Below, piece after piece: positions 2,981 through 61,354 of a DNA stretch of 64,000 nt. A program made the translations under genes and the position numbers. Each line of letters starts with the position of its first letter. Within the stretch, counting starts at the first letter, position 1. Source of the stretch: Selaginella tamariscina (lineage: Eukaryota > Streptophyta > Lycopodiopsida > Selaginellales > Selaginellaceae); the NCBI GenBank assembly GCA_003024785.1, contig PUQB01000102.1:414168-478167 (forward strand), read 5' to 3'. The notes under the pieces are model-generated. The model was not told the DNA's origin and searched no databases. It was given only the letters and a program-made list of their open reading frames with translations.

Positions 2981-4748
2981 TCATCTTTCTTTCACGGAGC
3001 CGTAAATGTTCGCAAGCAGCATTCGCACCCCGTCATCCTCGGGGTTCACCTTCAATGCGTTCTCCGCCGCACGTTCCCCGCGGTATACATCACGGTGTAT
3101 CCCACACCCGCCGAGTAACGCTCCCCACGTCTTCGAGTCCGGCTCAAAAGGCATGCAACTTATAAGCTCCTCTGCCTCCTGTAGCTGACCGGCACGTCCC
3201 AGGAGGTCTACCATGGAGTTGAAGTGTTCTACAATCGGTACAACCCCGAAGTCACATGTCATCGACCTGAAATACCTCAGTCCGTCCTCGAACAACCCGG
3301 CATGACCGCATTTACTAAACACACATATAAACATGATCTCGTCAGGACTAAATACGCCTTCTATGTTCATTCTATGGAAGTAACCCATTGCTCTCCTGCC
3401 TTCTCCAACATCCCCAGTCTGGGCATTTGCAGCAACCATTATCGTCCAAGACAGGCAGCTCCATATAGGCATTCTCTGGAAGAGCAACCGAGCCTCATCA
3501 ACGTGCCCACTCTGGGCGTGCACCCCAACCATGACATTCCACGAGACCGTGTCTCGCTCCGGCATCGAGTTGAATGTTTTCCACACGTCTTCTATATAAC
3601 CATGTTGCGCATATCCCACAAGCAATGCGTTCCACACTATTATGTCCTTCTCCATCATACCATCGAAGGCCTCCTCGAGAGAGTACATATGTAAAACCGC
3701 AGTCGCTAAAAGCATGTCGTGCTCCGGCATGGTATCGAACAAGCGTCTGGCCTTCTCGCATTCTCCATTCTGTGCGTAAGCCATTACAAGTGAACTCAAA
3801 CAAATGTGGTCTCTCTCAGGCATATTGTCGAATATCTGTTTCGCTAGCTTTGTGTCGCCCTTGTGTGCATAAGCGGTCAGGAGAGAGGTGGATGACAGTG
3901 TTGTGAAGCGGCATTTGCTTGAATATGAACACTGCCTCCTCAAGCTGGTTACTTTGTGCATATGCGTCGACCATTACAGACTGAGAGATTATGTCATGGA
4001 AAGGAATGTAATCAAGCACTTCCTTAGCTTCGTTAAGCTGCCCAGTCTGTGCGTATACCATAACTATCAAGGTGACCGAGACGAGATCGTGCTCCGGCAT
4101 TGTATGGAACATGGCCTTGGCCATCTCCAGATGCCCGTTCTGGGCATATGCAGCTAACATGGAAGTCCAGGCAATGAGGTTCCGCTCCGGGAGACTCTCA
4201 AAGATATCCCTTGCTTTCTCTACACAAGAGCTCTCGCTAAACGCCTGGATCATTGTAGTAGACGTGACCACGTTCCATTCCGGCATGGAGCGGAACAACG
4301 CTCCGGCCTCCTCGATATGCCCTTTCTGGGCATATGCTTGTATGACTGCAGTACAAGAGATGACATCTCTCTGTGGCATGCACTGGAAAAGCCCGGTGGC
4401 TTGTTTGAGATCCCCGTTTTGTGCGTATGCTGATATCATGGTGTTCCAACAAGCGAGGTCCTTGTAAGGAATTCTATAGAACGTTTCCTCCGCTTTCTGC
4501 AGATGCCCATTCTGGGCATATGCCTGGAGCAGTATGTTCCAAGAGAATGTATTGGGTTGTTGAATTGTCTCGAATGCGGCATGAGCGTATTCGATTGCAC
4601 CGCATTTTCCGTACATTTCTACGCATAGATTGGCGAGCATACGGTCTCGGGAGCACAATGGGTCGCCTATAAGCTGGGAATGTATTCTTCTTCCCTGCTC
4701 TAAGTCCCTGCATGATCTCAGGCGCTCGGCATAAGAGTTTGCCCGCAT
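2981..4748 (-). CDS. PLS-type pentatricopeptide repeat (PPR) protein with one frameshift
   Basis: Starts at Met 4748 (MRANSYAERLRSCRDLEQG) and contains about thirteen PPR motifs with AYAQNGHL, AYAQKGHIEEA and similar helices. It ends LLANIYGSVKER at 2981. A single frame change near 3890-3900 splits the reading: KQMPLHNTV continues as SSTSLLTAYAHKG one base over. One repeat near 3680 (AVLHMYSLEEAFDGMME) is shortened. As in the convergent neighbour, the protein stops just after the NIY of the presumed E-type region, with no DYW deaminase domain. The two PPR stop codons are only 17 bp apart, and the genes may be an inverted duplicate pair. Expected role is organellar RNA binding. Intronless, as usual for PLS genes of lycophytes. 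Confidence 0.85.
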
Positions 4749-9150: not shown

Positions 9151-11979
9151 TAAATGTGTTATAGGTTCATTAAATAGTATATAATATCTTAAAAGCTTTT
9201 GATGAAATTATATAATATATTACTAGAAAGCCTAAGTTGCTTGTTCAAAAGAGTTGCTTAAAATGGCACTTACTCATTTTACCTACATGCTTATTATTAT
9301 TGCTTAGATGATTTAGAAGAGATGTATTAAATGATTTAAGACAATTGGTGATATAAGTATTTTCAAAATGATTTTTTACGTCACAAGGTATTCATATTGC
9401 ACAAAGACTTCTCGATGAGAATTTTTTAAAGTGAAGAAATATTTTCTAGTTTTATTTTTGAAACGATGGATATAATAGTGAAGAGTTTGCATAATGTTGT
9501 AAAGAATTACATTATTGATATGATTTATTATTAGAGAAACATTATTAAAGATTTATTATTAAAAAAATATTGTTCGAAAAAGAAAACAATGCAATATATG
9601 ATGCATCGTATGAACAGCATTTACCTTTAATTTGATATCCTTAAGGGCTATTAATAATTGACAAAATTATCTTATGTTATATTGTAATGATGAACTCAAG
9701 ACCAAGTTAAGTGTTCATTTTAATGTTTTTGTTTTTCAAAACAATATTAAAAAGCTATTAAACAAAGATCTTGTCAAGAGTAAATAAAAGAAATTTTTTT
9801 CTACGAGTTAATGAAAAATCATTTGGTTATCATATACTTAAATACTTCTATGCTTCACTCTATGAAGGAAATTCATTTATTAGTTTGAATTAAACTCAAA
9901 AAAATTTTAATTGGTTACAATTTATAAACATATAAAAGTTAGTGTATAATATAAAGACGGTGAACAATATAAGAAATAAGGGATTTAAGATATTAGAAAT
10001 TGATTTGTAAGTTGACTTTAATTATTAACATTATTAAAGTTACAAGATTGTCCGTAGCACTTTAAAGAACACCAAATTAATTCATTTCAAGTTCAAGTTA
10101 CATAGAAAAATATTAAGTAAAAGTTTATGCTATGTTTAATTTATATTATGTTGTTTCTTTAGGTTTCTTTGTAATTTTTCTTGTAACAAAAACTTATTCA
10201 CAGGTGTTTTGTATTAAAATCAATTTTGCTTAATCATAGGGTTTTTAAATATGATTAAAATACTGTACATTGATTATAAATGTACAATTAAATAAGAACA
10301 ATTAATGTTATTAAATTTATTTGAAACACTATTAATATTGATATTTAATAATAATGTATAATTTAATTTTACATTAATTTTAATAAATATATAAGGCATT
10401 AACAGTATAAATATTACTTCATGAAGTAATATTTATTTTATATTGAGTTACAAGGGATGATAAACAGTTCATTATTCACTAAACTCACTTTTAATTTTAG
10501 AAAACATAAAATTAAAAAAAGAAAAAACATTACTATATTATTAGAGGAATTTGAGATTAATTGATGTTAAACAGTTAGCCTTGTCCTTATGCAGCTCTTT
10601 TGAAGTATTTATAATTTGTAAGGTTACACAAACACTCATTGACCGTGTTGTAGTTAAACCTGGTGTGTGTGTGCCTATATATATATAGACACACACACAC
10701 AAAATATATTATAATATTAAAAAAAACTCATATATAATGTGCACTTATAACATGCCATTCGTTGTGTTAGCCTTTTCGAATAAGTATAAAAATAATTGTG
10801 ATTTTTTTTATTTATAATAGAAATTATAGAAATTTATATAGATATATGCATTCATAGTAAATTGACATTTTAAACTTAATATACAATGCTATGTTATTTA
10901 AAGCTAACAAAAAAGATTTGTTTGCAATCTAATAGTTCTTAAACAAGCATTGAATATGTGTATACTAATACTATTTAATCACGCATAATTAAATATACAT
11001 GTATCTATATTCTAGTAGAGTTCTAATATATAAGTATCAGTATTCTAATATATTTACAATTGTTTTTTTAAGGAAATTTTTATGCAGGTGTATTTGTAAA
11101 TTGTATATGCATATAGTGGCTATACATATGATTAAAAGCCAAATTATATATAAATATAATCGTGTACATAAATGGATCGAAATATCTCTTGTTTCTCTGA
11201 TTAAAGTGAGCTTCTTAGTTCTCTTGCATTTTAAAATATAAAAATAAAAACTGGTCTTATAATTATACAATGATGATATGAAACATGATTTAACTAAAAT
11301 ATAACACATACATTGGCATTTGTTTAGTGTATCTATACGTTGAATATATTAACTAAATTATGTTAATATTATTTAATACGCAACACGAAATATTCAATAT
11401 ATTCATAATGCACACATACACTACGTAGTAATCTTTGTACAGATAAGTCATTCTTTTGTTTTGCTTGCTTAATCGTTTTCAAAATCCTTGTATATATACA
11501 TATACTGAGCTTGAATATTATTAAAACTAAGAAAAAATATAGTTTAACTTGTTTAAGAATTACTAAATATAAAATCTAAACCATTAATTATTAAATTATA
11601 TTAGAAACGGATTTGCTATCTTCTATATAACCACCCTATGATCCTTTGCCTCTCTACACACTTTACATAAAGAGCATCATTAACGGTTTTACCAGTGTTG
11701 AAAACTTCACGTTTCAACACGTAGTTCGAATTTTATATAAATAATTTTTTTTAATCTCAGAATTAATTTATAATTTGAATAATTTGATTAATCAATGTTC
11801 TTTACGTTTTTATGTAAAAAGTTAAATTTCATATCAACAAACGTTCCAGATTGACGGAGAACGTCTGCAGTTCTATATCTGTTTTATTTCTTTAGAAATT
11901 TTCATTTAACAGATTATTAAATAATATTTCCTTAATGCTGTTAGGACGGTTAATTGCAACTGCCATGGTTAAGTGGTGT
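9151..11979. other. Very AT-rich intergenic DNA
   Basis: No gene, RNA or transposon could be recognised. It consists mostly of A/T homopolymer-like tracts with short palindromes. A perfect inverted pair, AATATTACTTC / GAAGTAATATT, sits at about 10408-10433. TG/CA runs occur at 10664-10700. Confidence 0.6.
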
Positions 11980-18379: not shown

Positions 18380-20058
18380 ATGGCTTCTTGGTGGTTACTA
18401 ATAATGGCACTTCTGCTGTTTCCTAGCATTCTATCTACAAGTGCCCAACAATTTGGACGGTCTCCACCACCTTCAAGGCAACCACCACCACCTCCTTCAA
18501 GGCCACCACCTCCGCCACCGCCTGTCTCACCTCCACCTCCACCGTTAGTTTCATCACCACCGCCTCCACCTTCAGTCTCACCACCACCACCACCTTCAGT
18601 TTCACCACCACCATCACCCCACCACTCCACCACCTCCAGTCTCACCACCACCACCACCTCCACCACCACCACCACCACCTCCAGTCTCACCACCACCACC
18701 TCCACCTTCAGTCTCACCACCACCACTCCACCTCCAGTCTCACCACCACCTCCACCACCTTCAGTCACACCACCACCACCACCACCTTCAGTCACACCAC
18801 CACCACCACCTCCAGTCTCACCACCACCACCTCCACCTTCAGTCACACCACCACCACCACCTCCAGTCTCACCACCACCACCTCCACCTTCAGTCACACC
18901 ACCACCACCTCCAGTCTCACCACCACCACCACCTCCACCTTCAGTCACACCACCACCACTCCACCTTCAGTCTCACCACCCCACCGCCTCTGTCTCACCA
19001 CCCCCACCGCCGCCGCCATCTGTCTCACCACCACCACCTCCAGTCTCAACACCACCACCACCACCATCTGTCTCACCGCCACCACCTCCGTCACTATCAC
19101 CACCACCACCACCATTCTCTCCACCTTGTCCTGTCCCACCTCCGCCACCTCCACCACAGTGTCCGGCATCTCCACCATGTCCGTCGCCTCCACCGCCACC
19201 GGTGTGCACAAGACCACCACCAGCCACTTGCACGTCGCCACTGCCACCGCCGCCACGGAGCTGCCCACCAGTAACTCCTCCGTTCCAGTTGCACTCCATG
19301 CTACAACAGAAAGTCCGATCATGAGCTCCTGTCCACAATGCACCAAGTTCACTACTTGTTGCACTATCTCTATGCCACTGCAGCATCCAAATCTCGACTC
19401 ATCAACGCTACCCAGCCCGAAACTACAATCATGGACATGGTTTCTCACTTCCACACGCAGTCTCTGGCTCACTCAAAGTAAGCTGTGTGTGCGTGCGCGT
19501 GCGTGTGACTAACTGTTATTTTTCCAGGGTGCTACATGGTCTTCTCGGAGAACCCAGCCACACAATGAAACAGCTTAGTGTTTACAAACCTCTTGGATGC
19601 TGCATTCAACACCAAGCTCCACCCGGCTTTCGACCCCTTCTCGTCTCCCATGGCTCTCCTTGTTGCAAGCTCCACGATACCCCTCGCTACACCGTCTCGG
19701 TGGCCATCTTACCAGATCTCGACTCAAAATCCTCCAAAGCAGTAAGTAAATTATTTTTTATTAAACAAATGTGACTGTCTAATTAAACAAAATGCAGCCA
19801 GTGGCAGAGATGGTGGGAGCATTTGCAGGACAAGATGCAGCGGTCAAGGCATTAATACATGAATACCAAGCTGAAGTGGTGGTGCCCTACGGTTATACAT
19901 TGTCAAACTTCCACAGCAGGGTGGTAAACTTGTGCACAACTATGGAATTCCTAGAGGGTGTTACATATTATAACAAGTTTCACACTGATGGTGGAGTTTC
20001 ACATCTTACTTATCACCAGGCTCTCGGGGTGCTCCGAAGGCTGGGATTCCTACAATGA
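18380..20058 (+). CDS. Extensin-like proline-rich domain followed by PCC13-62-type desiccation-related (ferritin-like) domain
   Basis: Begins with a signal peptide (MASWWLLIMALLLFPSILST). Then come about 270 residues of PPPPPSVSPPPP / PPPVSPPPPP repeats and a Cys-containing PPP stretch, typical of secreted cell-wall extensin-like proteins. The open frame ends at 19324. One base over, homology to the PCC13-62 family starts at about 19318 (HELLSTMHQVHYLLHYLYA). It continues as DMVSHFHTQSLAHSK, LLDAAFNTKLHPAFDPF and, after an intron at 19742-19797, EMVGAFAGQDAAVKALIHEY, ending VLRRLGFLQ at 20058. A first intron runs 19478-19527. The family is induced by drying in resurrection plants. Within the Pro-rich part the CCA repeat slips into a TTT/HH reading twice and returns, so indels occur here too. 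Alternative: two genes, with the second lacking its own start. Confidence 0.72.
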
Positions 20059-26735: not shown

Positions 26736-29172
26736 GTGAATTTTATTCTTGCAATGGGAGCGATGGAATGCGTCACTATGAGATCGAATGGAAGCGAGAA
26801 GGCGGATTTTCAATGCGAGGAGCGAATCGTGACGACAGGGATGCCGGAGGAAGTTCTTCCCATTTTGCATAAGCTAGCTGGGAAATGGCCGGATGTTCTT
26901 GACGCACTGGATGTAGCGTGGAGGCCGCTAAAAGGCGCCATGACGAATCACATATACGAGTGTCGCTGGCCGGGCGGTCATGGCAAACGGGAGCGCAAGG
27001 CGCTGGTTCGGATTTACGGCGACAGTGTCGATATCTTGTTCAGGCGCGAGGATGAAATCCGCACATTCGAATTCATATCGCGCAAAGGCCAGGGTCCTCG
27101 TCTTCTTGGCCGATTCCCGAATGGCCGCGTGGAAGAGTTTATTCACGCCAGGGTTTGTATCTTTTGGCATTTTCTGTCCAAAATTTGCATCTTTTTGCTG
27201 TTCTTATCACTTGTTCTTGTCTCACGATTTCGCTTTCATTCTCTTCTTAGAGTGCGAAATCTACTGTGTTTCGTTTGTGCAAACATCTGTTCTGATGCAG
27301 GCGGTTTTCTTGTTTTCACTATAGACGCTCTCGGCTGCCGATTTGCGCGATCCTAAAATCTCCGCTAGCATCGCGGCAAAGCTCTGGGAATTCCACCATG
27401 TCGATTTGCCCATTTCGCACGAACCCATGCTCTGGAGTCGTCTCAGGTAAAACACAGCACACCGATGTTTGTATGACATTTCACGAAATTATTTGTTTTC
27501 TGCACAGGGACTGGCTGCAAAAGGCATTGAAATTGTGTACACCTGAATCGATGAGCGGTTTCAATCTACCGGAGATTTCCGACCTCGAGAGAAGAGCATT
27601 GCATTGCCTTCAGACCCGATTGGATTCTGTCACAACGATTTGCAATATGGGAATATCATGCACGACGACGAGACCGGCTCATTGACACTCATAGTGCGTT
27701 TTTCCCAAACAGTTTGTTTTTGTGCATACACACAGATATGGTGTGTGAGTTAGCAGTATTATTATGTATATCTTTGTGTGTTTTATAATGCTTGCTGCAA
27801 CACAAGTTTGTTAACTTCCAGGATTACGAGTATGCAAGTTACAATCCGGTGGCATTTGATATTGCGAATCACTTTTGTGAAATGACTGCTGACTACCACA
27901 CAGATTGCCCTCACCGACTGGATTACTCCAAATATCCAGGTTTGTGATAATGCATTATACATGATTTTAGACTTCATCATTTTTAGCTTGACTACTTGAT
28001 GTTTTGTGTTCTGACGCAAACCCGAATTTCTCTGTGCTTACGAAATGTAGTATCATATGGACGTAGTTCATGCCGTATGTCCGTATAAATGAAGTGTGTT
28101 ACAATCGTTTTGCATACACTTGAATTTTCAAATCCCAGTACGTAACTCGATATCGACCGCCTAATTTATAGTGTTTGACAAGTTCTTAACTGCAGTTTGT
28201 TTTCAATCGTAGACTACTAAACATGTGCGGAATCTCTAGTAAATTCGACACTTATCTTGTGTCATGATCTTACGCATTGTGACTGGTTACTTTCGAGAAA
28301 GTCATAGATGCTTTTGACATTGTTACACATGCATATGTAAATTAAACACTGTTTACTATCACTGTAATAGGTGTGGAGGAAAGAGAAAGGTTTATCAAAG
28401 AGTATTTAAGTGCATCAGGGGAGGCAGCAAGTCAAGCCACATAGAAGATATGATGCGTCAAGTGGATCGCTACGAGCTCGCAAGTCACGTACACTGGGGC
28501 CTCTGGGGAATCATCTCTGTAAGTCACACGGATGTCATTCCTTCTTGCGTGTTAGCTGAAAACATCTCTAAACTTTTTCATACATTTATATATATAGGAA
28601 GTATGATAGCTCATACTTCTAGTCACTTTGTACTCTTAGTGATCTCATACGCAAAGATAAACTTTTTCATACATTTATATATATAGGAAGTATGGTAGCT
28701 CATACTTCTAGTCACTTTGTACTCTTAGTGATCTCATACGCAAAGATAAACTTTTTCATACATTTATATATATAGGAAGTATGATAGCTCATACGTCTAG
28801 TCACTTTGTACTCTTAGTGATCTCATACGCAAAGATATATAAAGAATCAAGTTGTTAATTATTAGATTGTTTTGTTAACTTTCATAATTCATATATCACA
28901 ACACACTCAATTATAACGCAGTAGTATATACATGTGTTGAGATGTGTTGTATATTTATGTGTATGTATGTCTCCCTCTCATGTTTATGTAATGTGTGTGT
29001 GTCTGTGTATAAAGTATGTACTTGGTTGTGCGTATATACATGTAAATTAATTTATTTACTTACATATGAATATTTGCAGGCTGCTATTTCAGATATTGAC
29101 TTCGACTTTCTTGAGTACGCAAGGCAACGACTGGCTCGCTACGAAGAGAGAAAGCGTGAGATAAGATCATAA
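26736..29172 (+). CDS. Choline kinase (choline/ethanolamine kinase family)
   Basis: Six exons: 26736-27152, 27325-27446, 27508-27693, 27822-27939, 28371-28518, 29080-29172. The first in-frame Met is 26736; a second at 26754 (MGAMEC) is equally possible. Exon 1 contains the nucleotide-binding region ([33 protein letters not shown]). Exon 3 carries the catalytic Brenner motif [12 protein letters not shown], and exon 4 the choline kinase motif [20 protein letters not shown]. Exons 5-6 give [11 protein letters not shown] and [18 protein letters not shown]. It phosphorylates choline as the first step of the CDP-choline route to phosphatidylcholine. Frame breaks: in exon 3 before FCHND, and in exon 5 at GCCACATAGAAG, where a stop appears before [14 protein letters not shown]. 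Spacing and motifs match plant choline kinases better than ethanolamine kinases. Confidence 0.9.
28571..28837 (+). repeat. 89-bp tandem repeat, three copies, in choline kinase intron 5
   Basis: Units start AACTTTTTCATACATTTATA at 28571, 28660 and 28749. Each ends CTCATACGCAAAGATA, and they differ by only two or three visible substitutions, which suggests recent amplification. Confidence 0.92.
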
Positions 29173-33459: not shown

Positions 33460-34959
33460 ATGAGAAGATCCTTGAACAACCGCATAGCAGTGATTGATGC
33501 GGTGACAAGGAACAAAATATGCCTCATCATTTTTCAAGTTTGATATTTTGAGCACTTCAAAACTGCAATGTTTTACGTACATATTTCTATGCTAGGTTTT
33601 GGTTCTTATAGTTGAAGCTTTCAGATTGATTGCTAACGACAAGAGCCCTGCTTTACCAACTTTACCTGGTGAAGATGATGATGAGACGGAGCTTCGCTGA
33701 GCTGTGGCTACCAAGAGGTTTTGCACCAAGCTATGGTGGGTGAAGCCGAGGAACCTCACAGCTTGGAGCAAGTTCTTCATGGAGTATTATGAGCCTGGAC
33801 GGTGGAAGAGAAAGCTTCGGATGGAAAAGAAAACCTTCTTCTTGCTCTGTGGTATGTTAGAGGAGAACATCCGCAAGCAGGAGACGACATGGAGGAGAGC
33901 AGTTCCTATCGACGTTCGCTTGGGAGTCACCTTGGACAAGCTGTTCAAGAACACAGACTACTCGGGTCTTTAGATAAGTTTGGAATTGGTGAATCTACTG
34001 CTCATGACATTGTTTGTGAGACTACTGCTGCAATCGTCAAGAGCCTAGGATACAAGATTCGATTCCCGAGACAGCAGAAGAAGTTCAGGCTGTAGTTGCG
34101 AGCTTTCAGAGGGTGACAAGAACCCGGTTGCCCAATATTGCGGGGGCAATAGATTGTACGCATTTTGAGATAATCCGTCCTGCTGGCCTAGACGGTGAGA
34201 GCTACTACGATTGGAAGCAACGTTACTCCGTGATCATGCAAGGAGTGTGTGACGCTCAGAAGAGGTTCTTGAGTGTGTATGCAGGCTGGCCAGGTGAATA
34301 CTTTTTTTTTTACCAGGTTCTTATTTTTCTTTTTAATATTTTTTTTTGTTTCTAGGGAGTGTGCATGATATGAGAGTTTTTCAGAACTCTACTCTGAGAA
34401 ACAAGATTGTAGCAAGACAGCTACTCACAGCACCTCTTGAGCTTGCATTCGATGAGAGGATCGAGCCTTACCTGGTGGGAGATAAAGGTTACCAGCTCCA
34501 GCAACATATAATGATCCCTCACACAAGTAAGTGTTGTTTGATTTTTATTTACGTAAGTTGTAAAGTTGTCACAGCTCCCCACCTAACGAGGGGTGAGTCC
34601 GAGTTCAACCTCCAACACCACCTTGCTCGGATTGTTATTGAGCAAGCATTTGGACTTCTGAAAATGAAGTTCAAATGTCTGGATCAGAAACAAAAATTTG
34701 TTCGAAGTACCTCCCGAACATCATCAAGAGTTGTTGCATCTTGCACAACTTCTTGATTGATGTTGGTGAAACCGATCTACAGGCTGAGATACAAGCATGG
34801 AAAGAGGAGGTTAAAAAGTGGAAGAGGCTTAAAACATATGTGGATTATGGTGATCCTGTGCAAGCTGAGGGAGAGCCACTAGAAGACTTGCAAGGGTTGG
34901 AGGATGCTAGGGACATCTGGGAGAACCTCACCGACTTTCTCTGTTTGCGTTCTTATTGA
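33460..34959 (+). CDS. PIF/Harbinger DDE transposase (DDE_Tnp_4 type)
   Basis: The reading starts MRRSLNNRIAVIDAVTRNK, then RFCTKLWWVKPRNLTAWSKF and TTWRRAVPIDVRLGVTLDKL. The helix-turn-helix-like block FGIGESTAHDIVCETTAAIV precedes the catalytic core. First Asp is in IAGAIDCTHFEI, second Asp in PGSVHDMRVF, and Glu in LARIVIEQAFGLLK, so the DDE triad is kept. Introns at 34294-34355 and 34527-34574 restore PGSVHD and IPHTTPHLTRGESEF. Frame breaks occur near 33965, near 34090 and near 34703 (before YLPNIIKSCCILHNF). An intron is also likely between 33518 and 33595. The protein cuts and pastes DNA at the TIRs. Confidence 0.85.
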
Positions 34960-50975: not shown

Positions 50976-52324
50976 TAGCACCCCGTGTCATGTATCAATG
51001 AATGGTCATGCATCACCCATACCTATAGTGGTCGTAGGATGGGGCCACATAAGTTTAGAATGTAGGGATGAGATGTTCGATACACAAACGTCTCCTGCTA
51101 CCTTTTTAACTGTTTTAATTGTATTCACTACACTGGCCCACCACTCTCTTTACAAATATGTACATCTTTTACTTTCTTACTACATTTTTTTATTTCTCCT
51201 AACTCATTAAAAACATAATATTATGGTTGACATACATGCTTCATGTATATAATTATTAATTCATGGTTAATAAACTTCAGAATTAAACTTCCAATTGTTA
51301 ACATGACCCTATTACATTGTCTTGGAGAGGGTTAAACATTTTGGTAAAGATGTATATTTTAAATTTTAATTTAAAAGATGTAAAATAAGAAAATAAAAGA
51401 TGCTGTATTTATAAAGAATATGGTGGGGTAGTTAGTGCAATTAACCTAGTTATAAGGTAATGGGAAGACAAAACACACACTAAATAATTTTATTATTATT
51501 ATTATTATTATTATTTATGTATAAAATTAGGATTTACTATTTATGAAAAATAAAATCCTTGGTGTAAACTAAAATGGGTAAAGCTACGATAGTTATTGCA
51601 CTACTTTATATAGCATAATTTTCTTTTATGTATATATGTGGAGGAAATCATTATTAAAATAATTATATATAATATTAAAGAGTGAACATTAATATAAGGT
51701 AGATACATAATATATATTTAAAATGTTTATATATATCTTTTTTAGATATAACCTTAGGTTTACATAGACACACCATTTATACATGTACCAAAAAATTGGG
51801 ATTATGGATTTTAAATATAGACTAAGGTGTCTTAGAGACATGGAGGCTTTCCTAAAAAACTAAGAGGACTACAAAGTTTGAGAACCATGTGGACACTTGG
51901 GATTAGTGTGTATGATGCAAGTTGTAATTAAAATGGGCATTTCTATAGTCCCATTTTTTTAATAATTAACATTTTCTAATATTAAAAGAATATTCTTTAG
52001 AATAATATATGTTTAAAGAAAGATTATTCTTTTTCTTTAGAATATATATTTGAAGACAGAATATTCTTTAGAATATTCTATTTTGTAAGTGACCCTTTAA
52101 TAAATTATACCATTCATGGACCAAAAATTAATAAAATTATAAAAGTAGAAGGTATTAAGTTATATAATATATTATATTTAAAATTGTATGGGCCTAATAT
52201 AAAAATTAAGGAAGAGCATGAGAGGTACATTATATAAATATTAATGTTGTTTTTAAATTTTAATATTTAAATATAACATTAATTAAAAATTTGTACTATT
52301 AATAATATATATATAATATACAAA
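50976..52324. other. AT-rich DNA with a (TTA)n tract and a MITE-like left end
   Basis: An ATT trinucleotide tract lies at 51488-51514. At 51925 TAATTAAAATGGGCATTTCTA and the following TAGTCCCATTTT match the left end of the MITE at 36005, but no right TIR is found. The motif AGAATATTCTTTAGAATA recurs at 51980-52080. No gene seen. Confidence 0.5.
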
Positions 52325-53015
52325 TGGTCGTTGCGGACTCTGTAGGCCAGATGTGGTGCTTCTTATAAAGCCTCAGTGGTTGCCAAGATGTCGTAGACAG
52401 CATCCAATTCTAGGGGTCCGTGCCAGCTAGCCGGCCTTACCTTGGGTGTACTAGAAGGTGCTGAATGGCCTCTACCCGGACGCTGCAAGGGTCCATGTAT
52501 AGGGGTGGGGAAGTTCACCTAGAGCAGTGCCACCACTTGGTGGCAGAGTAGGTTGTTGGGCCTAGCAACAGAGCAAAGTAAGTATCATCGAAGAGATGGT
52601 GATTAGAAGGAACATGTATTTATATATGGTGCCTGCTTGAGTGCAAACTCCCTCAGAGAGGTGAAGCAAGATACAAGACAAAACTCCACTCGAAAAAGGC
52701 CCCGACCCACTACCAGCCTTCCTGCTTATATCGTGGGTCACCTAGCACTAGACCCTAGGTACAGGTGGCACTCCTCATTGGTTTGCCGCCATGTGATAGA
52801 GTCCTGTCTGTCATATTTATGCGCCTCCCTCGCACATGCTGTCCTAAACACCCTTGGTAGTTGATTCGGACAATTGGATTTACGCTTGATTACGCCGCTG
52901 CCTGACAGCTGTCGCTGTCAATCCATACCTGCAGTACCTTCCTTGCTCAGCGCTTCGTCCCGTCACTCACCCACTCTGGATGGCAGTTTGACGATGGTCA
53001 TACCATTGTCAACTA
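52325..53015. mobile_element. Candidate solo LTR or other insertion (GC-rich island)
   Basis: A 691-bp block of clearly higher GC than its surroundings is flanked by ACAAA on both sides (52320-52324 and 53016-53020). It begins TGGTCGTTGCGG and ends TTGTCAACTA. It has no long ORF and no similarity to the other LTR family here. The flanking repeat suggests insertion, but the end is not the usual CA. Confidence 0.4.
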
Positions 53016-53619
53016 ACAAAATCCTATATAGTCAATCTTCCATATCTTTTTATAAATTTATATAGCTAAGTAAACAATTTGGTACTATTATTAAAGAGTT
53101 TATTATAATTATGAATATTAAATATACTATATTTTATAATTTTGTAATTACTTTAAGCTTCAAAAAATATATATTCTCTTGCAGTTTTGTTAACCGTGAC
53201 TTTATCAACGCTTCTCGACATCCACCTATATCGAATGGATTTAACATTTATAAAACATGCTGGGTTTTTTTGATTGGGAGATCATGTTTTCTCTAAACAT
53301 CCCTTATATCTTTCGCTCTTCTTCTTATATCGCCTTTTTTGTGGTTTGAATTATGCAACCTTATAACCATATTTTTGTGATTACTTCAAGTGTGTTAATT
53401 ATTTGACCCATCCAAATAGGCTAATTATATGACACATCTAGAGTAATGAGGACCATCATCAATTTTTGAAGATCCTTTAGGTTTTTGGTTCCTTTGTCCA
53501 ACAAAGTGTGGAGTTTGCACTTCCACATCACTATTGGCTTTTATGTCGTTTGTGCTCATTGATGTTATTTCAATCTCCTCTCACCACCTTGTTTTAGGCC
53601 AAAAAGGGTGTTATAATTA

Positions 53620-56046
53620 TGTACTTGTGACAATAGGCCCTTCTAACTCTCGAACAATAGTCTCCCAATAGTTGACCACATGCATATATAGTTCTGAATA
53701 ACTAGTTGCCTTATCAAAATTTATTGGCATCGATTTTTGAACCCATGCCACATATTTTTTGATGCCATTAATAATAATCTCTTGTTCCTTCAGCTGGGCA
53801 CTCAATGGAATAGGGTCTGGTTATCCTTATGGGAGAAGTGGCTTTCCATCCTCTCCACTTTTGAAGAGCATTAAGCCCTCTTTTGGTAACCACTCCTGCT
53901 CTAATGGCTGTAACTTGTATTACATAATAGATATACCATCTCTTATGGAGAAAAAGAATTGTAGCGGCACAAGGTGACCAACTAAAGAATCACTCCCCTC
54001 TTTTATATACTCCTTGAGAAACTTTTTGAAGTCTAGCACCTCAGTCACAAACAAAGCACAACTTTTTTTGGAGATGCAATTTTTAAAAAGATCCATCATA
54101 TGTGGTAAGGTAAGTGCACTTGTCCTTTTTGTAGAGTTGGAGATCTTGCTAAAGAACGCATCAATATCTTCATAAGTGTGACCAACCATAAAGAAACTGA
54201 GCGTGATTGTCTCAAACACATTTTTGGCAAACAAGCATTGAGAAGTATGCTAGTACATATCTAGAAAATAAAAGTAATTATGAGTTTGAGAAACCCTTAA
54301 CTAAAATGATTTACCTATTTTTGTTTTGCTTGCACAATTATCCTCCACTGAACCAGAACTCTCAATAGGGCCATCTATTTTTTGTGCAGGCTACTGACAA
54401 TGCCTCTCATATTCCCAAGTAGCTTTAAGTGCAGACGTGTTCATGAAAGCATTATGTAAAGGTTGAAGGTGTTGTTTCTTCACTTTGAGATCACTCATAG
54501 GACTTATTTGTGAGTGGGCTTCAAGGTTTCTAAAACACATGGCCAACGACCCAATAGTGAAATTGGAGTCACTAGACCAATGTGGAAGTGAAAAGTGTCC
54601 ATATGATTCATAACCGTGTCCATGTGTTAACACACATGTTAATGAAATCGGAAGTTTCATGACATTTCCAAGGCACTTTGGTGTTGCAACGAGCTTTGGA
54701 ATGCTGGTCTTTGAATGATCCAGTTTGTCATGGATCAAGCATAGGTATTCTAATGGGTGTGACACAGAAAGCATGCGGTGTGCATAGTACTGAGACCGGC
54801 AAGTTTATTGTGCAATCATATGGGCCTCCATCTTCTTTTGAATGGTAGTGATCTCCATCAAGGTTTTTGCACAAGCCTATGCAGCCTTCAATGATGTACA
54901 AGTGTCACACTTGGAAAAGCTAGAGTGTTTTGCAATCTTCACATCCTTAAAATGAGTATTCCATGTTGTTGAAGGTACCAATGTAGATTACTTGGAGCTT
55001 CATCAAACTGAGGCACTTGTTCACATGTTCACACAGCTTAAATTGAGTGTAAATTGAAGGCAAGACCTTGAGATTTTCCTTGACCCCTGCATTTGTGGTT
55101 CGGCATTTGTGAGGCATCATGTATGCATTTGCTTCCACAAAAGCCTTGAGTATCTCTATGTATGCCATAATGTGAGAGCGGGTTTTGACCAAGCAAGTGT
55201 TCCCATATATTGAGGTGCGTGCTCCATCTAGCCACTCATCCCTCTGATGGTAGAACATGGTCTTTGGGATCCCGTATATAGTGTACCAAGCTTTGAAGCA
55301 GATGGCCACCTTATTAAATACCATGGATGTACTCTAATAACTTGTGTTTAAGGCCATTCCATCACTACACTAAGTTAGTGTAGCATATACAAACTTGTGC
55401 CTGTGCTTTTGGGTGAGCATACGAAAGGCATTTTTACATTGGGTAATTTCATTCCAATCTGTCATCTGATAACACTTCTTCTTGTAGCAATCAATTGTGG
55501 AAATGCTAATAACACTTGTCGAAGATGTAGGGTCCATCTTGACCCTCTTGCAGAAACTTGCAGGGGCATATCTGCAACTCATGAATTGCCTTTTTCTTAT
55601 TATAGGACCAATGCAAGGAACCTCTTCAAATATGGGTTGTCCTTCCGGGTTGTTATTATTGAAATTCAATCCTGAATATGTTAAACCATCTCGCCGTCTT
55701 AATTCAGATGTTCGCCACCTCATAAGAGATCCATGATGCAATGTGCTATTAGGTGAAACCTCTGTCACAACTACACCCACGAAGTAGGCCCCTAGTTTCT
55801 CTTTTGATACGGCTTCCATTGGATTTATTCTATGATGATGCCCCTCCTAACCTCGATCTCATGAAGAAAGAAAATCACCTCATCCATCACAGTAAGCAAG
55901 TCATCATCTGGTGAACTCGTACTACTATTTGTTTGTGACTCTGCATATTCTGTGTCAGCTTTGACTTCATCCACATTCCACAATACAGGAGAACCCTTTT
56001 CAAATTCCATTCTAGAAACCTTAACATGCTTGCAAATGGTGTTCAC
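53620..56046 (-). pseudogene. Decayed DUF7869-type gene, probably transposon-derived
   Basis: Minus-strand blocks in changing frames, in order: WNVDEVKADTEYAESQTNSS; CIGPIIRKRQFMSCRYAPAS; a Cys/Lys-rich segment to HRHKFVYATLT; IPKTMFYHQRDEWLDGARTS; LTCVLTHGHGYESYGHFSLP; FFMVGHTYEDIDAFFSKISN; KEQEIIINGIKKYVAWVQKS. The MVGHTxEDID box with the preceding THGHG-type block is typical of DUF7869 proteins, found in multicopy element-like genes of plants and animals. Function is unknown. Stops and frame breaks separate the blocks, for example at 55825, 54947 and 54391; some gaps may be introns. Confidence 0.6.
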
Positions 56047-56329
56047 CCATACATATACACAAAATCCTTAGGCAATATTGTGACATGATGCATTATCATC
56101 TCGAACTTTTACAGTTCCAGTGCCAATTATTTTGTTGTTCCGAAGAAGACATACTTTATCTCCAGTATTAAACATATTGTCCTACACATAAATAATTGTG
56201 TTATTTATGATATTTATTTATGCAATATTTTCAAAAAATCTGAATCGAGGGTGCTTAATATATATGTGTGTGCAATAATATATAATTATGTATAACTATA
56301 AATTATCATGCTTGATTAATACAACTGGT

Positions 56330-56778
56330 GACGGGATTAATTCCGCCACCCCTTTCCTGCCTAATAAAATGGTGGGCGGGATTAATTTTGCCCACGACTC
56401 CCTTCAACGAGGAAGAGTTAGCGAGAATAATCCCACCGCCAACTACTCCTCATCGGAGAGAGGCAACGGGATTAATCCTGCTGCCACTCTTTTTGACGAG
56501 GATGAGTCGGCGGGATTAATCCCGCCGCCGACTCTCTTCGACGAGGAAGAGTCGGCGGGATTAATCCCGCTCACAACTCTCACCGACGGGGAATAGATGA
56601 CAGGATTAATCCCGCCCACAACTCTCTCTGAAGTTATGATTTCAGAGAGATCTCGAGGGCGTGGCGGGATTAATCCCGCCAATGCTTTCCTGCTTCCTAA
56701 ACTAATCGGCATAATAAATCCTATTCACAAATCTTTAAAATATGGAAGTGGTGGCGAGATTAATCCCGCCACTCCTTC
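56330..56778. repeat. Palindrome array 1, GGCGGGATTAATCCCGCC, 45-bp period
   Basis: ATTAAT centres start at 56336, 56381, about 56426, 56471, 56515, 56560, 56605, 56669, about 56714 (degenerate) and 56759, so the period is 44-46 bp with one 64-bp step. Perfect 18-bp palindromes lie at 56509-56526 and 56663-56680. Spacers such as ACTCTCTTCGACGAGGAAGA are themselves partly self-complementary. Both strands stay open for 80-100 codons (GLIPP and GGINPA readings), a by-product of the repeat. The array is cut by the solo LTR at 56779. Confidence 0.92.
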
Positions 56779-58619
56779 TGTCAGAGTTTTAACCCAAAGG
56801 GCCAACACGTGGCAACACGGTGGCCATTCGGCGTTACCACCCTGTGTGAGCAACGCTAAGTTTCCCAGAACAACCCCAACGACCCCTAAGGTTAAACTCT
56901 AATGCCCAAGTGGACAGGAGACTTAGGGTTTAGCCTAAGTCTCCCTAGAGTGTCTACCCCCAAAACCCTTGAGGGATAACCCTAGTTGACTTAGGGTTTA
57001 GCCTAAGTCTCCCTAGAGTGTCTGCCCCCAAAACCCTTGAGGGATAACCCTAGTTGACTTAGGGTCTTGCCCTAGAAGACCTAGATAGGCTCATGATATA
57101 ACCCCCATCAAGGAGACGTGTGTTCCACACATACCCTAGACAGAGCTAAGGCATCGTCACTTACCCTTTGAGGAATCACCCTCATCCGGGAGTACAACCC
57201 CTTAGGGCGACAAGGGTACCCTGAACCACGACTAACCCCTAAGGGTTTGAGTGGCCAAGTCATACCCTAGACCTAGGGCTAGTACTTAGTGAGGACACGA
57301 GTGTGCACCGTAGGCAGACACGAGTGTTCTGCTAAGCAAACTCCCTAAGGCTAGGTTTAGGATAACCCTAAACACATGACCTTGCGAGTGCCTTACGAAA
57401 GGGCTTCTGCTAATGAGCTTAGGTTGTTCAACCCCTGGATTCCAAGGAGAACACTCCCTAGCCAAGTGTGCCAAAGCACACCTAGTTATGAAACCTAACC
57501 TCTCTTGAGCGGATGCCCAAGGCTTAGCACCTAGTGCAAGCACAAGCACCCTAGTGCAAGCACAAGCATGTCTGTTTGCTAGAGTATCCAACCCCTTAGC
57601 GACAAGCCCATGACATAACCCCAAAGGGCGTGCCTCGGACGTTGTACCATGTGACATTTAGCCCAGTGTCACATCTCCATGTGACACTGCCTTCCATGAT
57701 GTGGGCTATCATGCCATAGCCCTTAGATTCAAGAGTTGCACCAAGTACCACAAACGTGGTTCCTAAATGCCAACTCTAGAACCCCTCAATGAACCCTCAG
57801 GAACCAAGGTAACGTGAACCTGTCAAACAAAATCCCACGCCCACAGTTGGACAAGGACACGGATGTGCCTTGCTGGCCATGAGTGCTACACCTAGCTTAA
57901 CATGGAGGAGGAGGCTGGAGACAAGCCTCAACCTTTGCCTCTTGGAATGTGCATTCCAATAAGACCTCCCAGGCATGGATTCGCCAACGTTAAGGGTAAG
58001 CTACCCCGAAGGTGGGACGTACCCCTGTCGTCTGGAAGTTAGGGCGGTACAACAGAGGGTTGTACCTTAACGACACAAGCTGAATCTTGCACCGGCAGAA
58101 GAGCAACGAACTCAGTCATGAACCCAGGAGCTCTCCTACATATACTCTACCTTATTTATGTGACGGAGCCCCCCCCCCTCTTTTCCTATATGTGTTAGTG
58201 GGCTGGCACTGAATTTTAGCCCTTAGACAAATTAGCAGTATGAGCTTATAACTCACCCTTACTCCTACCCCTAAACCCTACCCAAGGGGGTGGGGTTTTA
58301 GGGCGTGGGTTAGGGCAACCCTAGGGTTAGGTCAACCCTAGGGGTGTTTCTAACCCTACTTAACACGCCGAACTCATCTGCAAAGACCAATCAGCCTATT
58401 CGGGACGTCAAAATTGGGGTGGGTTTCTAGAAGGTAAGTTTTAGCTTCGCTTAGAGTTTCCTGTAAATACCTAATGACACCCGGCCGACCATCATCAGAT
58501 ACCCAAGTGCACTAAGCGGGCATGTTTCCTACTACATCTAGGGTCCATCAACATAGTACAGTAGGTAACAACAGTCAACGTCCAAAGTAAAGGGTCGAGT
58601 CATAGTAAAAACTATGACA
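56779..58619 (-). mobile_element. Solo LTR with perfect target-site duplication
   Basis: 1,841 bp, TGTCAGAGTTTTAACCCAAA to ACTATGACA, homologous along its length to the LTRs at 40539 and 45922. It is flanked by CCTTC on both sides (56774-56778, 58620-58624), proving insertion as one LTR unit. It carries a private 68-bp tandem duplication at 56920-57058 (GACTTAGGGTTTAGCCTAAG). Orientation follows the full-length copy. Removing it with one CCTTC leaves exactly 45 bp between flanking palindromes. Confidence 0.95.
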
Positions 58620-58870
58620 CCTTCTCTGCCTCCTAGAATGGTGGATGGGATTAATCCCGCTGACAAATTTTTCTAATAAATTCTGTTAACTTTTCATTAT
58701 TTTAGAGAGTTGTCGGCGAGATTAGTCTTGTCGCCCTTTCTATGCGGCGGAAAAGCATTGGTCGGATTAATTCCGCCACGCTTCCATGTTTGAAAGAGTT
58801 GTGAACGGGATTAATCTCGCCACCTCTTCTAAGAGGCAAAAAAGAATTGGTCGGATTAATCCCGCCGCCT
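58620..58870. repeat. Palindrome array 1 continued, right of the solo LTR
   Basis: Palindrome centres at 58650, 58721, 58766, 58810 and 58855 keep the 45-bp step except for one of 71. Cores are more worn here, for example GGCGAGATTAGTCTTGTCGC and TCGGATTAATTCCGCC. The array stops at about 58870, before AT-rich DNA. Confidence 0.88.
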
Positions 58871-59529
58871 CGACTAACCAAGAATATTAATTAAAAAAGA
58901 TGTGTAAATGATATAAATCCCTAACGGAATATAATGTAATCCTAATGGATTCCTAAACCCTTACATTCTAATTTTAAGAGAGAATGTAAAAAAAGTGAAT
59001 TTTTATAAGTATTTCTAAATTTGTTTAAATATTTGTAAACAGCACTGAAGGCGCTGTGCTTTCCTATAAACAATAGTACCCAATTTAATGTTGCCCATGA
59101 GGTGATCACTATAAAAACAAAGAAGATCTGAAGAGAGAAAATTACAAAATGAAAAAACCCTTGTCAAAGAAAGAACTAGATCTGAATTTAAGTGGGAAAT
59201 TAAATGCATTTTTAAATTTACATGTCAGTCCGACAATATTTATGTCAGAATTTCAAATTTTTTGAAAAGAAAAGATAACAAAATCTAATATGAGTTGACA
59301 CAAATAACTGACACTTTGACATATATACTCTATAATTCCAATAATTTTTATAAATTACTTAATGTATTTAACATTAGCAAGTGATTCAAGTTGTTTAATA
59401 TTACAAAAAATTTTAGTAATTATTCTACATTCTTAATATTCTAGTATATATTATTAAGTATATATTATAAATATATATACTTATACAATAAATAAATTAA
59501 TATATATTATGTATCATTTAAAATATATT
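58871..59529. other. AT-rich intergenic DNA between palindrome arrays
   Basis: No gene seen. It contains ordinary AT-rich sequence with short AT palindromes near 59450-59480. Confidence 0.5.
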
Positions 59530-59950
59530 CATAGGTGTTTATTAATATTATTTTCTTAATTATTCAAGTAATTAATTTACATTTCTTTATATTAATGGGA
59601 TATTCTTTATTATTTTCTTATTATTCCAAGAATATTCCAATATTAAACCTAATTATCATAATTAAATTAGTATATATTCTTAATTATTTCAGTAATTATT
59701 CTACATTGTTTATATTAAATGGGATTTTCCCAATTATTTCCTTATTATTTCAAGAATATTCCAATGTTAACCTTATTATCAATATTAAATCAATATATAT
59801 TATTAAAATTATATATGACTATATATAGATAAAATGATATTTATGTATAATTAAAAATATGTTCATAGTGTGTTTATTAATATTATTTTTCTTAATTATT
59901 TGAGTAATTAATCTACATTTCTTTATATTAATGGGATATTCTTTATTATT
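59530..59950 (+). repeat. ~130-bp AT-rich tandem repeat
   Basis: CTTAATTATT-AGTAATTA, CTACATT-TTATATTAATGGG, ATTCTTTATTATTTTC and AAGAATATTCCAAT recur from 59550, 59677 and 59890. The last copy ends at the second palindrome array. Copies have diverged by scattered changes. Confidence 0.75.
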
Positions 59951-59968
59951 TTTATGAGGTCCATGGGC

Positions 59969-60600
59969 GGCGAGATTAATCCTGCTGCCCATGAGGTTAA
60001 CTAAAGAGCCTACGTGAAGGGCAGTAGGATTAATTCCGCCGCCCATGAGGCTAACCAAAAAGCTTGCGTGAAGAGCGGCAAAATTAATCCCGCCGACCAT
60101 GAGGCTAACCAAAGACCTGCATAAAGAGCAGCGGGATTAATCCCGCCAACCCTTGCATGCCTTGTGGGCAGGATTAATCTCGCCCCACACTTATTGAGAC
60201 ATAAAAGGTGGCAGGATTAATCCCGCCGACCCTTTCATGCTTGATGGGTGGGATTAATCCTGCTAACCGTTCGAGAAGACGTGGAGGTAGTTGGGAGGAT
60301 TAATCCCATTCATCGGGCATGGAAGGGGTGGTGGAATTAATCCCGCCACCCTTTATGTCTTAATGAGTGTGGGGCGGAATTAATCCTGCCCACCGTCATT
60401 ATCTATATGAGGTGTTATGGCGGGATTAATCCCGCCACCAGCATAAGGGGTGCGGGATTAATCCCGCCACCCTTCTCTGTCTTTTAAATTGGTGAGACAA
60501 ATCATCTCGACTTCTATCTAAGACGAAGAAGGGTGGCGGAATAAATACTGCACACCATTTCAAGGGACTGCAAAGGGTGGCGAGTTAATCCCGCCACCCC
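59969..60600. repeat. Palindrome array 2, same core with different spacers and periods
   Basis: Centres at 59975, 60029, 60083, 60136, 60173, 60216, 60253, 60299, 60336, 60379, 60425, 60457, about 60540 and about 60582. The first units step 53-54 bp with spacer GCCCATGAGGCTAACCAAA; later ones alternate about 37 and 43-46 bp with other spacers. A perfect 18-mer core occurs at 60419-60436, and CGGGATTAATCCCGCCA-type near-perfect cores at 60136 and 60457. Units not carrying the perfect core keep TTAAT plus most of the flanking arms. Confidence 0.92.
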
Positions 60601-60995
60601 TTCCATATGAGCAGTTGAGGCCAAGTGGACCAGATGTTCCCATGGTGAAGAAGTTGGAATGGATGTGCAAAAGCCACAAGCAATGGATCAAGGAGGAGCT
60701 ACAATGGCGCAAGAGTGGATCAATTAGCTCAAAGCACAACTTGCACAAGCTCAAGAACAAGACATAAGCATCACAACTAAGCTGCAAGGGGGCACCGAGC
60801 TTAGGACACAACGATAGCCGCACTAGAGCTTAAGTTAGAGGTGGTGGAGAAGGAAGCCGCCACATACCGCAAGCACTACATGGTGGGCCAAGGATGCTAA
60901 GAACATGGCTCGAGATATGATGGCCCTAGATGGAGGTCGAGACCCAGGACACTCAATTAACAAAGGGGACCACAGCATAGCGGCATAGGGGGGGA
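60601..60995 (+). other. Probable 3' internal end of an LTR element
   Basis: GC-richer than its surroundings with a helical-looking reading (AALELKLEVVEKEAATYRKH) in a broken frame. It leads to the purine tract ATAGGGGGGGA at 60985-60995, directly before TGTTGACG. Order and purine tract suggest the end of a retrotransposon body; no domain recognised. Confidence 0.4.
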
Positions 60996-61354
60996 TGTTG
61001 ACGCCGTTAGGTAGTGCTAACTTTGAGACAGGTGTCAAGTAGTGCTGACAACAGGCTAGATTCAATCATGGACCAACTACCAAGGTGCAAAGGATGGCAC
61101 CATGGGGGAGGCGCATTAAGACAATTGACCAGTGGTCTTATGAAGGACATCCAATGGGAGGGTACCACATGGCTATAAACAAGTATCACCCCACCCACTA
61201 TATAAGCAAGCATGCAAGTAGTAGGACGGGGGTTTTCTAGTCTCTTCTTCTTGTGTCTTGTTCAAGTGATTAGATAAAGATCTTGAGCAGTGGCCCCGGC
61301 CACATTGTAATTCTAAGCTACAATATATATATCCTTCTTCATATGCTTGTTACA
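60996..61354 (+). mobile_element. Candidate 3' LTR of a second retrotransposon family
   Basis: Starts TGTTGACGCCGTTAGG after a polypurine tract. It contains a TATA-like CTATATAAGC at 61199-61208 followed by a promoter-proximal-like CT-rich leader, and could end at GCTTGTTACA (61354). No partner LTR is in the window, and the right border is a guess. Unrelated in sequence to the 1.7-kb LTR family. Confidence 0.45.

Follow-up and report, generated by a model that had tools for sequence, protein, structure and literature searches.

Palindrome arrays as candidate protein-binding sites in a DNA transposon family of Selaginella tamariscina

The 64,000-nucleotide stretch of Selaginella tamariscina DNA analyzed here (the window, C25:414168-478167 of a 300.7-Mb genome in 1,391 contigs) carries arrays of an 18-bp palindrome, and these belong to a DNA transposon with inverted-repeat ends and 4-bp target duplications. 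The palindromes are probably cis-regulatory or anti-silencing binding-site arrays of this one transposon family, comparable with the VANC targets in VANDAL elements. To our knowledge, transposon self-recognition and resistance to silencing are understood in detail in few systems; with approximately 70,000 near-identical palindromic sites in a single 300-Mb genome, and paired arrays before two gene groups, the question is directly testable here. The arrays also show how a site stays while its surroundings turn over and invert. The window itself contains PPR genes and a choline-kinase fragment, and is thus plant-like nuclear DNA.

The genome-wide search for the 18-mer proposed in a preliminary description of the window yields 70,550 sites at ≤3 mismatches, compared with 11 for the reversed pattern. 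Among about 100 listed places, many are pairs of clusters lying ∼3 to 4 kb apart, and some are single clusters. Ten palindrome-bearing stretches from contigs C1 to C3 (two of which overlap) were sampled together with ten neighboring stretches, and the family results rest on these stretches from few contigs. Outside the arrays, which were masked for this comparison, each of the ten palindrome-bearing stretches matches the same element, and pairwise comparison of the fetched stretches reveals a shared element with sharp ends. The left end, ATGCACGTTGTAACTAAAGTGGGCATG, has two differences from the reverse complement of the right end, giving inverted repeats of ∼26 bp. At ≤3 mismatches the left pattern occurs at 3,883 places and the right pattern at 4,134 (reversed controls, 0), and because the two ends differ by only two bases, each pattern should find both, which suggests roughly 2,000 element equivalents. 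Dividing 70,550 sites among ∼2,000 elements gives ∼35 per element, near the 39 to 47 palindromes counted at ≤5 mismatches in each of four mapped copies (A to D; one count, in copy C, is doubled by overlapping matches), so that most sites probably belong to this family, as checked on the fetched stretches.

Target duplications were examined in 20 end pairs 13.7 to 15.1 kb apart, picked by eye among the exact ends listed, where more are visible. With the ends taken as ATGCA...TGCAT, identical 4-bp flanks are present in 9 of the 20 paired ends but in only 4 of 380 mismatched pairs; the other 11 paired ends lack an exact 4-bp match, and no 5-bp duplication is seen in any of the 20. The duplications are TCTT, TAGA, CGTT, ATAG, ATAA, ACCA, CAAT, AAAT, and TATG.

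The element is 13,789 to 14,848 bp long in copies A to D, the left end of copy B being placed by alignment since its flank and first bases read N. A frame resembling a NIF phosphatase (Pfam E 3.8e-8) and a second coding region, ORF1, occupy the left part, both on the minus strand. Array A spans from ∼5.2 kb to 6.1 to 6.8 kb from the left end, with its near edge by eye ∼0.3 kb from the last ORF1 frame, and is followed by a non-coding central region of 3 to 3.7 kb and then by array B, with 11 to 17 palindromes per copy. The end of array B is 153 bp from the start codon of a plus-strand DUF7869 frame (PF25273; E 1e-26 in copy C) in all four copies, and a splice-acceptor-like CAG, seen by eye, precedes that codon. 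The right end lies 3.8 kb past the last palindrome, again in all four copies. The outer 3.3 kb on the left and 3.7 kb on the right are free of palindromes, and a lone palindrome is located ∼3.4 kb from the left end. The element thus has two divergent gene groups, each with an array upstream, and neither array is near an end. Pfam assigns no function to PF25273; the DUF7869 protein is the putative transposase.

The lone palindrome is among the ORF1 frames, and its distance from array A is 1,772 to 1,778 bp in each of the five copies compared (A to E; stretch positions 9858, 9664, 9460, 6498, and 14437, respectively), a constancy which indicates that it is inherited; in copies A and D it reads GGCGAGATAAATCCCGCC.

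A search for DUF7869, in which 150 of 4,249 candidates were scored and the matches listed had 90 to 99 bits, gave two loci, L069 and L070, of the same family as the palindrome element, to which L071 and L072, among three further stretches, also belong, with 10 and 14 palindromes; among the few matches read, no other DUF7869 family with a different motif was found. The third of these stretches (L073, 2736-4001) holds an internally deleted copy in which the left end, to ∼1.15 kb, is joined to the DUF7869 part without arrays. At L070, near 232, one copy meets another on the same strand, its right end adjoining an inner point of the latter (∼14.3 kb), in what seems to be a nested insertion. Pairs of exact palindromes 18 to 36 bp apart have no matches in viral contigs or prokaryote genomes, the DUF7869 frame has none in phage records, and a literature search with three forms of the palindrome and the name DUF7869 found no paper in the library searched.

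Judging from its sequence, the window copy is an old, reversed, and truncated copy of the ∼14- to 15-kb transposon, with the DUF7869 gene on the minus strand, and it is probably dead. Its parts are as follows.

51915..60595, minus strand: truncated transposon copy (BLAST to copy A, arrays masked)
51915..51941, minus strand: right terminal inverted repeat; homology ends at ...CCCATTTTAATTACAACTTGCAT (W 12086 = window 51915)
52318..53025, no strand: stretch unaligned to the element, a gap between aligned BLAST pieces; probably a later insertion
53026..56175, minus strand: decayed DUF7869 (transposase-like) gene, 91% identity to copy A
56330..56770, no strand: array B part 1, 9 palindromes with a period of mostly 45 bp (mismatch search, spacings)
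56779..58619, no strand: LTR-like (long terminal repeat-like) insertion of 1,841 bp that splits array B (TGTCA...TGACA ends, CCTTC duplication)
58644..58866, no strand: array B part 2, 5 palindromes (mismatch search, spacings)
58913..59952, no strand: central non-coding region between the arrays, 79% identity to copy A
59969..60595, no strand: array A, 14 palindromes spaced 54 bp, then 37 and 43 to 46 bp, with an inverted duplication inside

The BLAST pieces aligned to copy A are 51915-52317 (79%), 53026-54343 (91%), 54342-56330 (91%), and 58913-59952 (79%), and in this comparison nothing beyond array A in the window matches the far half of the element, where ORF1 and the NIF-like gene lie. 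PF25273 matches window 53923-54249 (E 5e-22), with a further match below the cut-off at 54394-54804 (E 1.2e-4); by eye against other copies, the start codon is near 56175.

At ≤3 mismatches there are 21 copies of the 18-mer in the window, against a shuffle mean of 0.00, and at ≤5 mismatches there are 28 within 56330-60595, in agreement with the approximately 28 of the preliminary description; a single base is missing from the final copy, at 60578. Core spacings are 45, 45, 45, 44, 45, 45, 64, and 90 bp in array B part 1; 71, 45, 44, and 45 bp in part 2; and 54, 54, 53, 37, 43, 37, 46, 37, 43, 46, 32, 84, and 43 bp in array A, matching the periods reported earlier (45 bp; 53 to 54 bp; alternating 37 and 43 to 46 bp). 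The palindromes form three clusters (56330-56770, 58644-58866, and 59969-60595) rather than two, but the first two are a single array parted by the 1,841-bp insertion, removal of which restores a core-to-core distance of exactly 45 bp. The two neighboring arrays with different spacers recognized previously are therefore arrays B and A of a single element, the former interrupted. Array A in the window contains an inverted duplication of 104 nucleotides (60164-60267 and 60290-60393, 84% identity).

The core and the spacers behave differently within the arrays. Pairwise identity among cores is 0.89 in copy A, 0.83 in B (a set that includes palindromes from other fragments in its 30 kb), and 0.87 in each of C, D, and E, whereas that among spacers is 0.43 to 0.46, with shuffled spacers at 0.38 to 0.40; the window copy has values of 0.77 and 0.44. 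This bears out the earlier observation that the core stays recognizable while spacers are replaced, and a plain minisatellite, in which the two should diverge together, is rejected. Copy A has a run of 11 perfect cores out of 11, in which the 10 spacers average 0.64 identity, and 63% of the 292 spacings of <400 bp in nine stretches are 43 to 46 bp. The palindrome stops at 18 bp; complementarity between its flanks does not exceed that in re-paired controls (P 0.16 to 0.80 in six sets).

The spacers had also been called unrelated, but some of them are related to each other. Across the six sets, 39 similar spacer pairs are in the same orientation and 20 in opposite orientation (same/opposite: A, 7/4; B, 5/8; C, 6/6; D, 13/1; E, 2/0; window, 6/1, in addition to its 104-nucleotide inverted duplication). 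Exact reverse-complement spacers of 27, 28, and 27 bases are present in copies A, B, and C, respectively, although these are close relatives that share some spacer pairs, so events are fewer than pairs.

Changes within the window cores were analyzed in 27 of the 28 palindromes, leaving out that at 60578. Changes in one arm had been described as sometimes mirrored in the other, but both arms seldom change together and matching is no commoner than chance: four base-pair cells are doubly changed (shuffle mean, 6.1), two of them complementary (shuffle mean, 4.9), and paired cells number 184 against a shuffle mean of 189. Arm substitutions in the window copy thus show no compensation beyond chance, although this copy is probably dead, which weakens the comparison. 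The 65 changes comprise 57 transitions and 8 transversions, and 56 are C>T or G>A; they affect 62 of 324 G/C positions and 3 of 162 A/T positions, which can explain why ATTAAT appears the most conserved. Such a pattern is what methylation and silencing would be expected to leave. It is less one-sided in copies A, C, and D (126 cores at ≤4 mismatches), with C>T or G>A accounting for 64 of 125 changes, and some of the remaining changes are probably from 1-base shifts.

The core resembles a symmetric binding site in having a fixed length and sequence, in being repeated with loose spacing, and in lying upstream of both gene groups, and we regard it as the putative site of a symmetric protein dimer. 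This is the best remaining of the options offered in the preliminary description, given an array B at fixed distance from its gene and a core that is kept between units far better than the spacers, which turn over, become inverted, and get shorter. The dimer would most likely be encoded by the element itself, and many copies of it would bind both arrays, either switching on the two gene groups (ORF1 and the NIF-phosphatase-like frame running left, DUF7869 running right, with one array upstream of each), shielding the region from silencing methylation in the manner of VANC, or both. The spacers would be free to vary because only the core would be read, and the palindromic form of the core would allow the spacer lying between two cores to flip with both sites left intact. 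In dead copies, the window copy among them, the core would be lost chiefly through C>T and G>A changes. Spacers could invert without a dedicated enzyme, given that chloroplast DNA is described as undergoing small inversions between short inverted repeats (PMC6444266), though an element-encoded enzyme may take part.

The closest parallel is VANC in Arabidopsis, an element-encoded protein that binds a 9-base motif repeated in the non-coding parts of VANDAL elements and brings about loss of methylation (PMC5735166 and PMC10398659). In the VANDAL21/VANC21 system, too, the short motifs form tandem repeats in non-coding regions, which differ greatly from one related element to another (PMC5735166 and PMC10398659), and the Selaginella element shares this feature, with non-coding motif arrays that vary between copies. 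The systems differ in that the VANDAL21 motif has 9 bases (YAGTATTAY; PMC5735166) and the palindrome here 18 bp. VANC, moreover, is a known and tested protein, whereas the binding protein here is a putative one. VANDAL elements have a Mutator-type transposase, as opposed to the DUF7869 protein and 4-bp duplications here. It is also conceivable, if doubtful, that the DUF7869 family evolved its own self-recognition independently of VANC, with ∼40 palindromes read by an element-encoded dimer that would keep both divergent promoters active in the face of host silencing, and with spacers that would invert and recombine without loss of sites, so that the arrays could renew most of their sequence, perhaps escaping host small RNAs, and still preserve the code.

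Several observations weigh against a role for the arrays in regulation or anti-silencing. In the frames scanned, which were not all frames, only DUF7869 and NIF passed the Pfam cut-off, and no VANC-like, recombinase, or DNA-binding domain did so (VANC sequences were not compared). HTH_psq and Transposase_23 match the DUF7869 frame only weakly (both E 0.14), no family or structural match to ORF1 is seen in Pfam, NCBIfam, or the PDB, and the structure models are of no use (predicted local distance difference test [pLDDT] scores of 31 for ORF1 and 35 for the DUF7869 N terminus). Pairwise comparison of copies, using aligned pieces of ≥90% identity, shows that after insertion the core is kept no better than the rest of the element: in four young pairs, divergence is 3.6 to 9.1% for spacers, 0.55 to 2.8% for the core, and 0.4 to 0.6% for the rest, and in the older pair A-D it is 13%, 3.5%, and 3.0%, respectively, part of the spacer excess necessarily coming from alignment of non-matching units. 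This speaks against strong post-insertion selection, and constraint on the core is visible only between units, over the history of the family. The core identities also carry a detection bias, as gaps of >60 bp between neighbors (5 of 43 in A, 8 of 49 in B, 4 of 44 in C, and 5 of 36 in D) may hide lost cores.

The lack of better core retention after insertion would also suit an ordinary tandem array without selected function, in which unequal exchange spreads the units and a hairpin-held spacer undergoes mutation, inversion, and shortening at a higher rate than the arms. Such an array could accommodate the array B length changes in copies B and C relative to A, which by eye break in mid-spacer, the occurrence of spacers in either orientation, some of them exact reverse complements (in A, B, and C), and the weak self-complementarity of spacer ends in A to E (P 0.000 to 0.016), which is not seen in the window (P 0.60); the small inversions in chloroplast DNA (PMC6444266) are a further precedent. 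We nevertheless consider it unlikely, as it leaves unexplained a core that is exact at 18 bp in two arrays and a lone site while spacers differ, as well as the run in copy A where all 11 cores are perfect and the spacers 64% alike. A direct part in transposition, with the transposase binding the arrays as it does the subterminal repeats of CACTA or Ac elements, is rather improbable. Groups of short sites are a typical mark of transposase binding in DNA transposons, and the DUF7869 protein is likely a transposase. The arrays are internal, however: in all four mapped copies 3.4 kb separate the left end from the first palindrome, and 3.8 kb separate the last one from the right end. The deleted copy at L073, which may never have moved in that form, has no palindromes in the 4 kb read.

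Selection of the palindrome as a folded RNA or DNA hairpin, which was among the earlier proposals, is very improbable: the consensus is perfectly self-complementary, but the arms show no compensation in the 27 window palindromes (in a copy whose probable death weakens the argument) and the palindrome does not extend into its flanks. We give almost no credence to its spread as an independent unit, also proposed earlier, or as tiny TTAA-flanked hairpin elements; the TTAA center and hairpin-like units are what such elements might show, but the ten stretches checked (two overlapping) all lie in one transposon, and the lone site keeps its inherited distance from array A in copies A to E. Recognition of the core by a protein dimer, serving regulation or protection from silencing, thus remains the reading that we favor.

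Other known element types were also compared. The TnpA sites of En/Spm and other CACTA subterminal repeats are similar in being repeated binding sites of an element protein, but the ends here are ATGCA... and not CACTA, the duplication is 4 bp and not 3, and the arrays are not subterminal, lying 5.2 kb and 3.8 kb from the ends with the nearest single palindrome at 3.4 kb. Foldback elements likewise have two sub-repeat arrays flanking a central region, but these form long terminal repeats, whereas the terminal repeats here are ∼26 bp and the arrays are not terminal. A piggyBac-like insertion at TTAA was rejected because none of the nine duplications is TTAA. Superfamilies with 4-bp duplications such as Sola resemble the element in that duplication and in inverted-repeat ends. 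As to the E2F resemblance named in the preliminary description, each half-site of the palindrome differs from the plant E2F consensus. ORF1 was considered as a ParB protein, with parS-like palindromes, because one stretch of it resembles by eye the N-terminal domain of ParB; this was rejected, with no ParB match in Pfam for a joined stretch or whole frames, nothing in the PDB or NCBIfam, and a pLDDT of 31. Spacer hairpins were set aside as a main argument, since the folding energies of the 134 unique spacers (mean z, -0.43; 15 with P<0.05) are only slightly below those of shuffles and the complementarity of spacer ends is modest, and lacking in the window.

Several further features of the window are of note. 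The insertion at 56779-58619 is GC-rich, with telomere-like CCCTAA/GGGTTAG stretches and a 68-bp tandem repeat. Past array A, where the element ends, window 60600-61300 resembles by eye the 3' end of an LTR retrotransposon (purine tract, TGTTGAC). Remains of a PIF/Harbinger-type transposase are present at 33701-34956 (DDE_Tnp_4, E 9e-9, frame 34020-34352), a long CACCACCAC-rich repeat at 18481-19125 encodes a proline-rich stretch, and three 89-bp tandem units at 28569-28837 are 98% identical.

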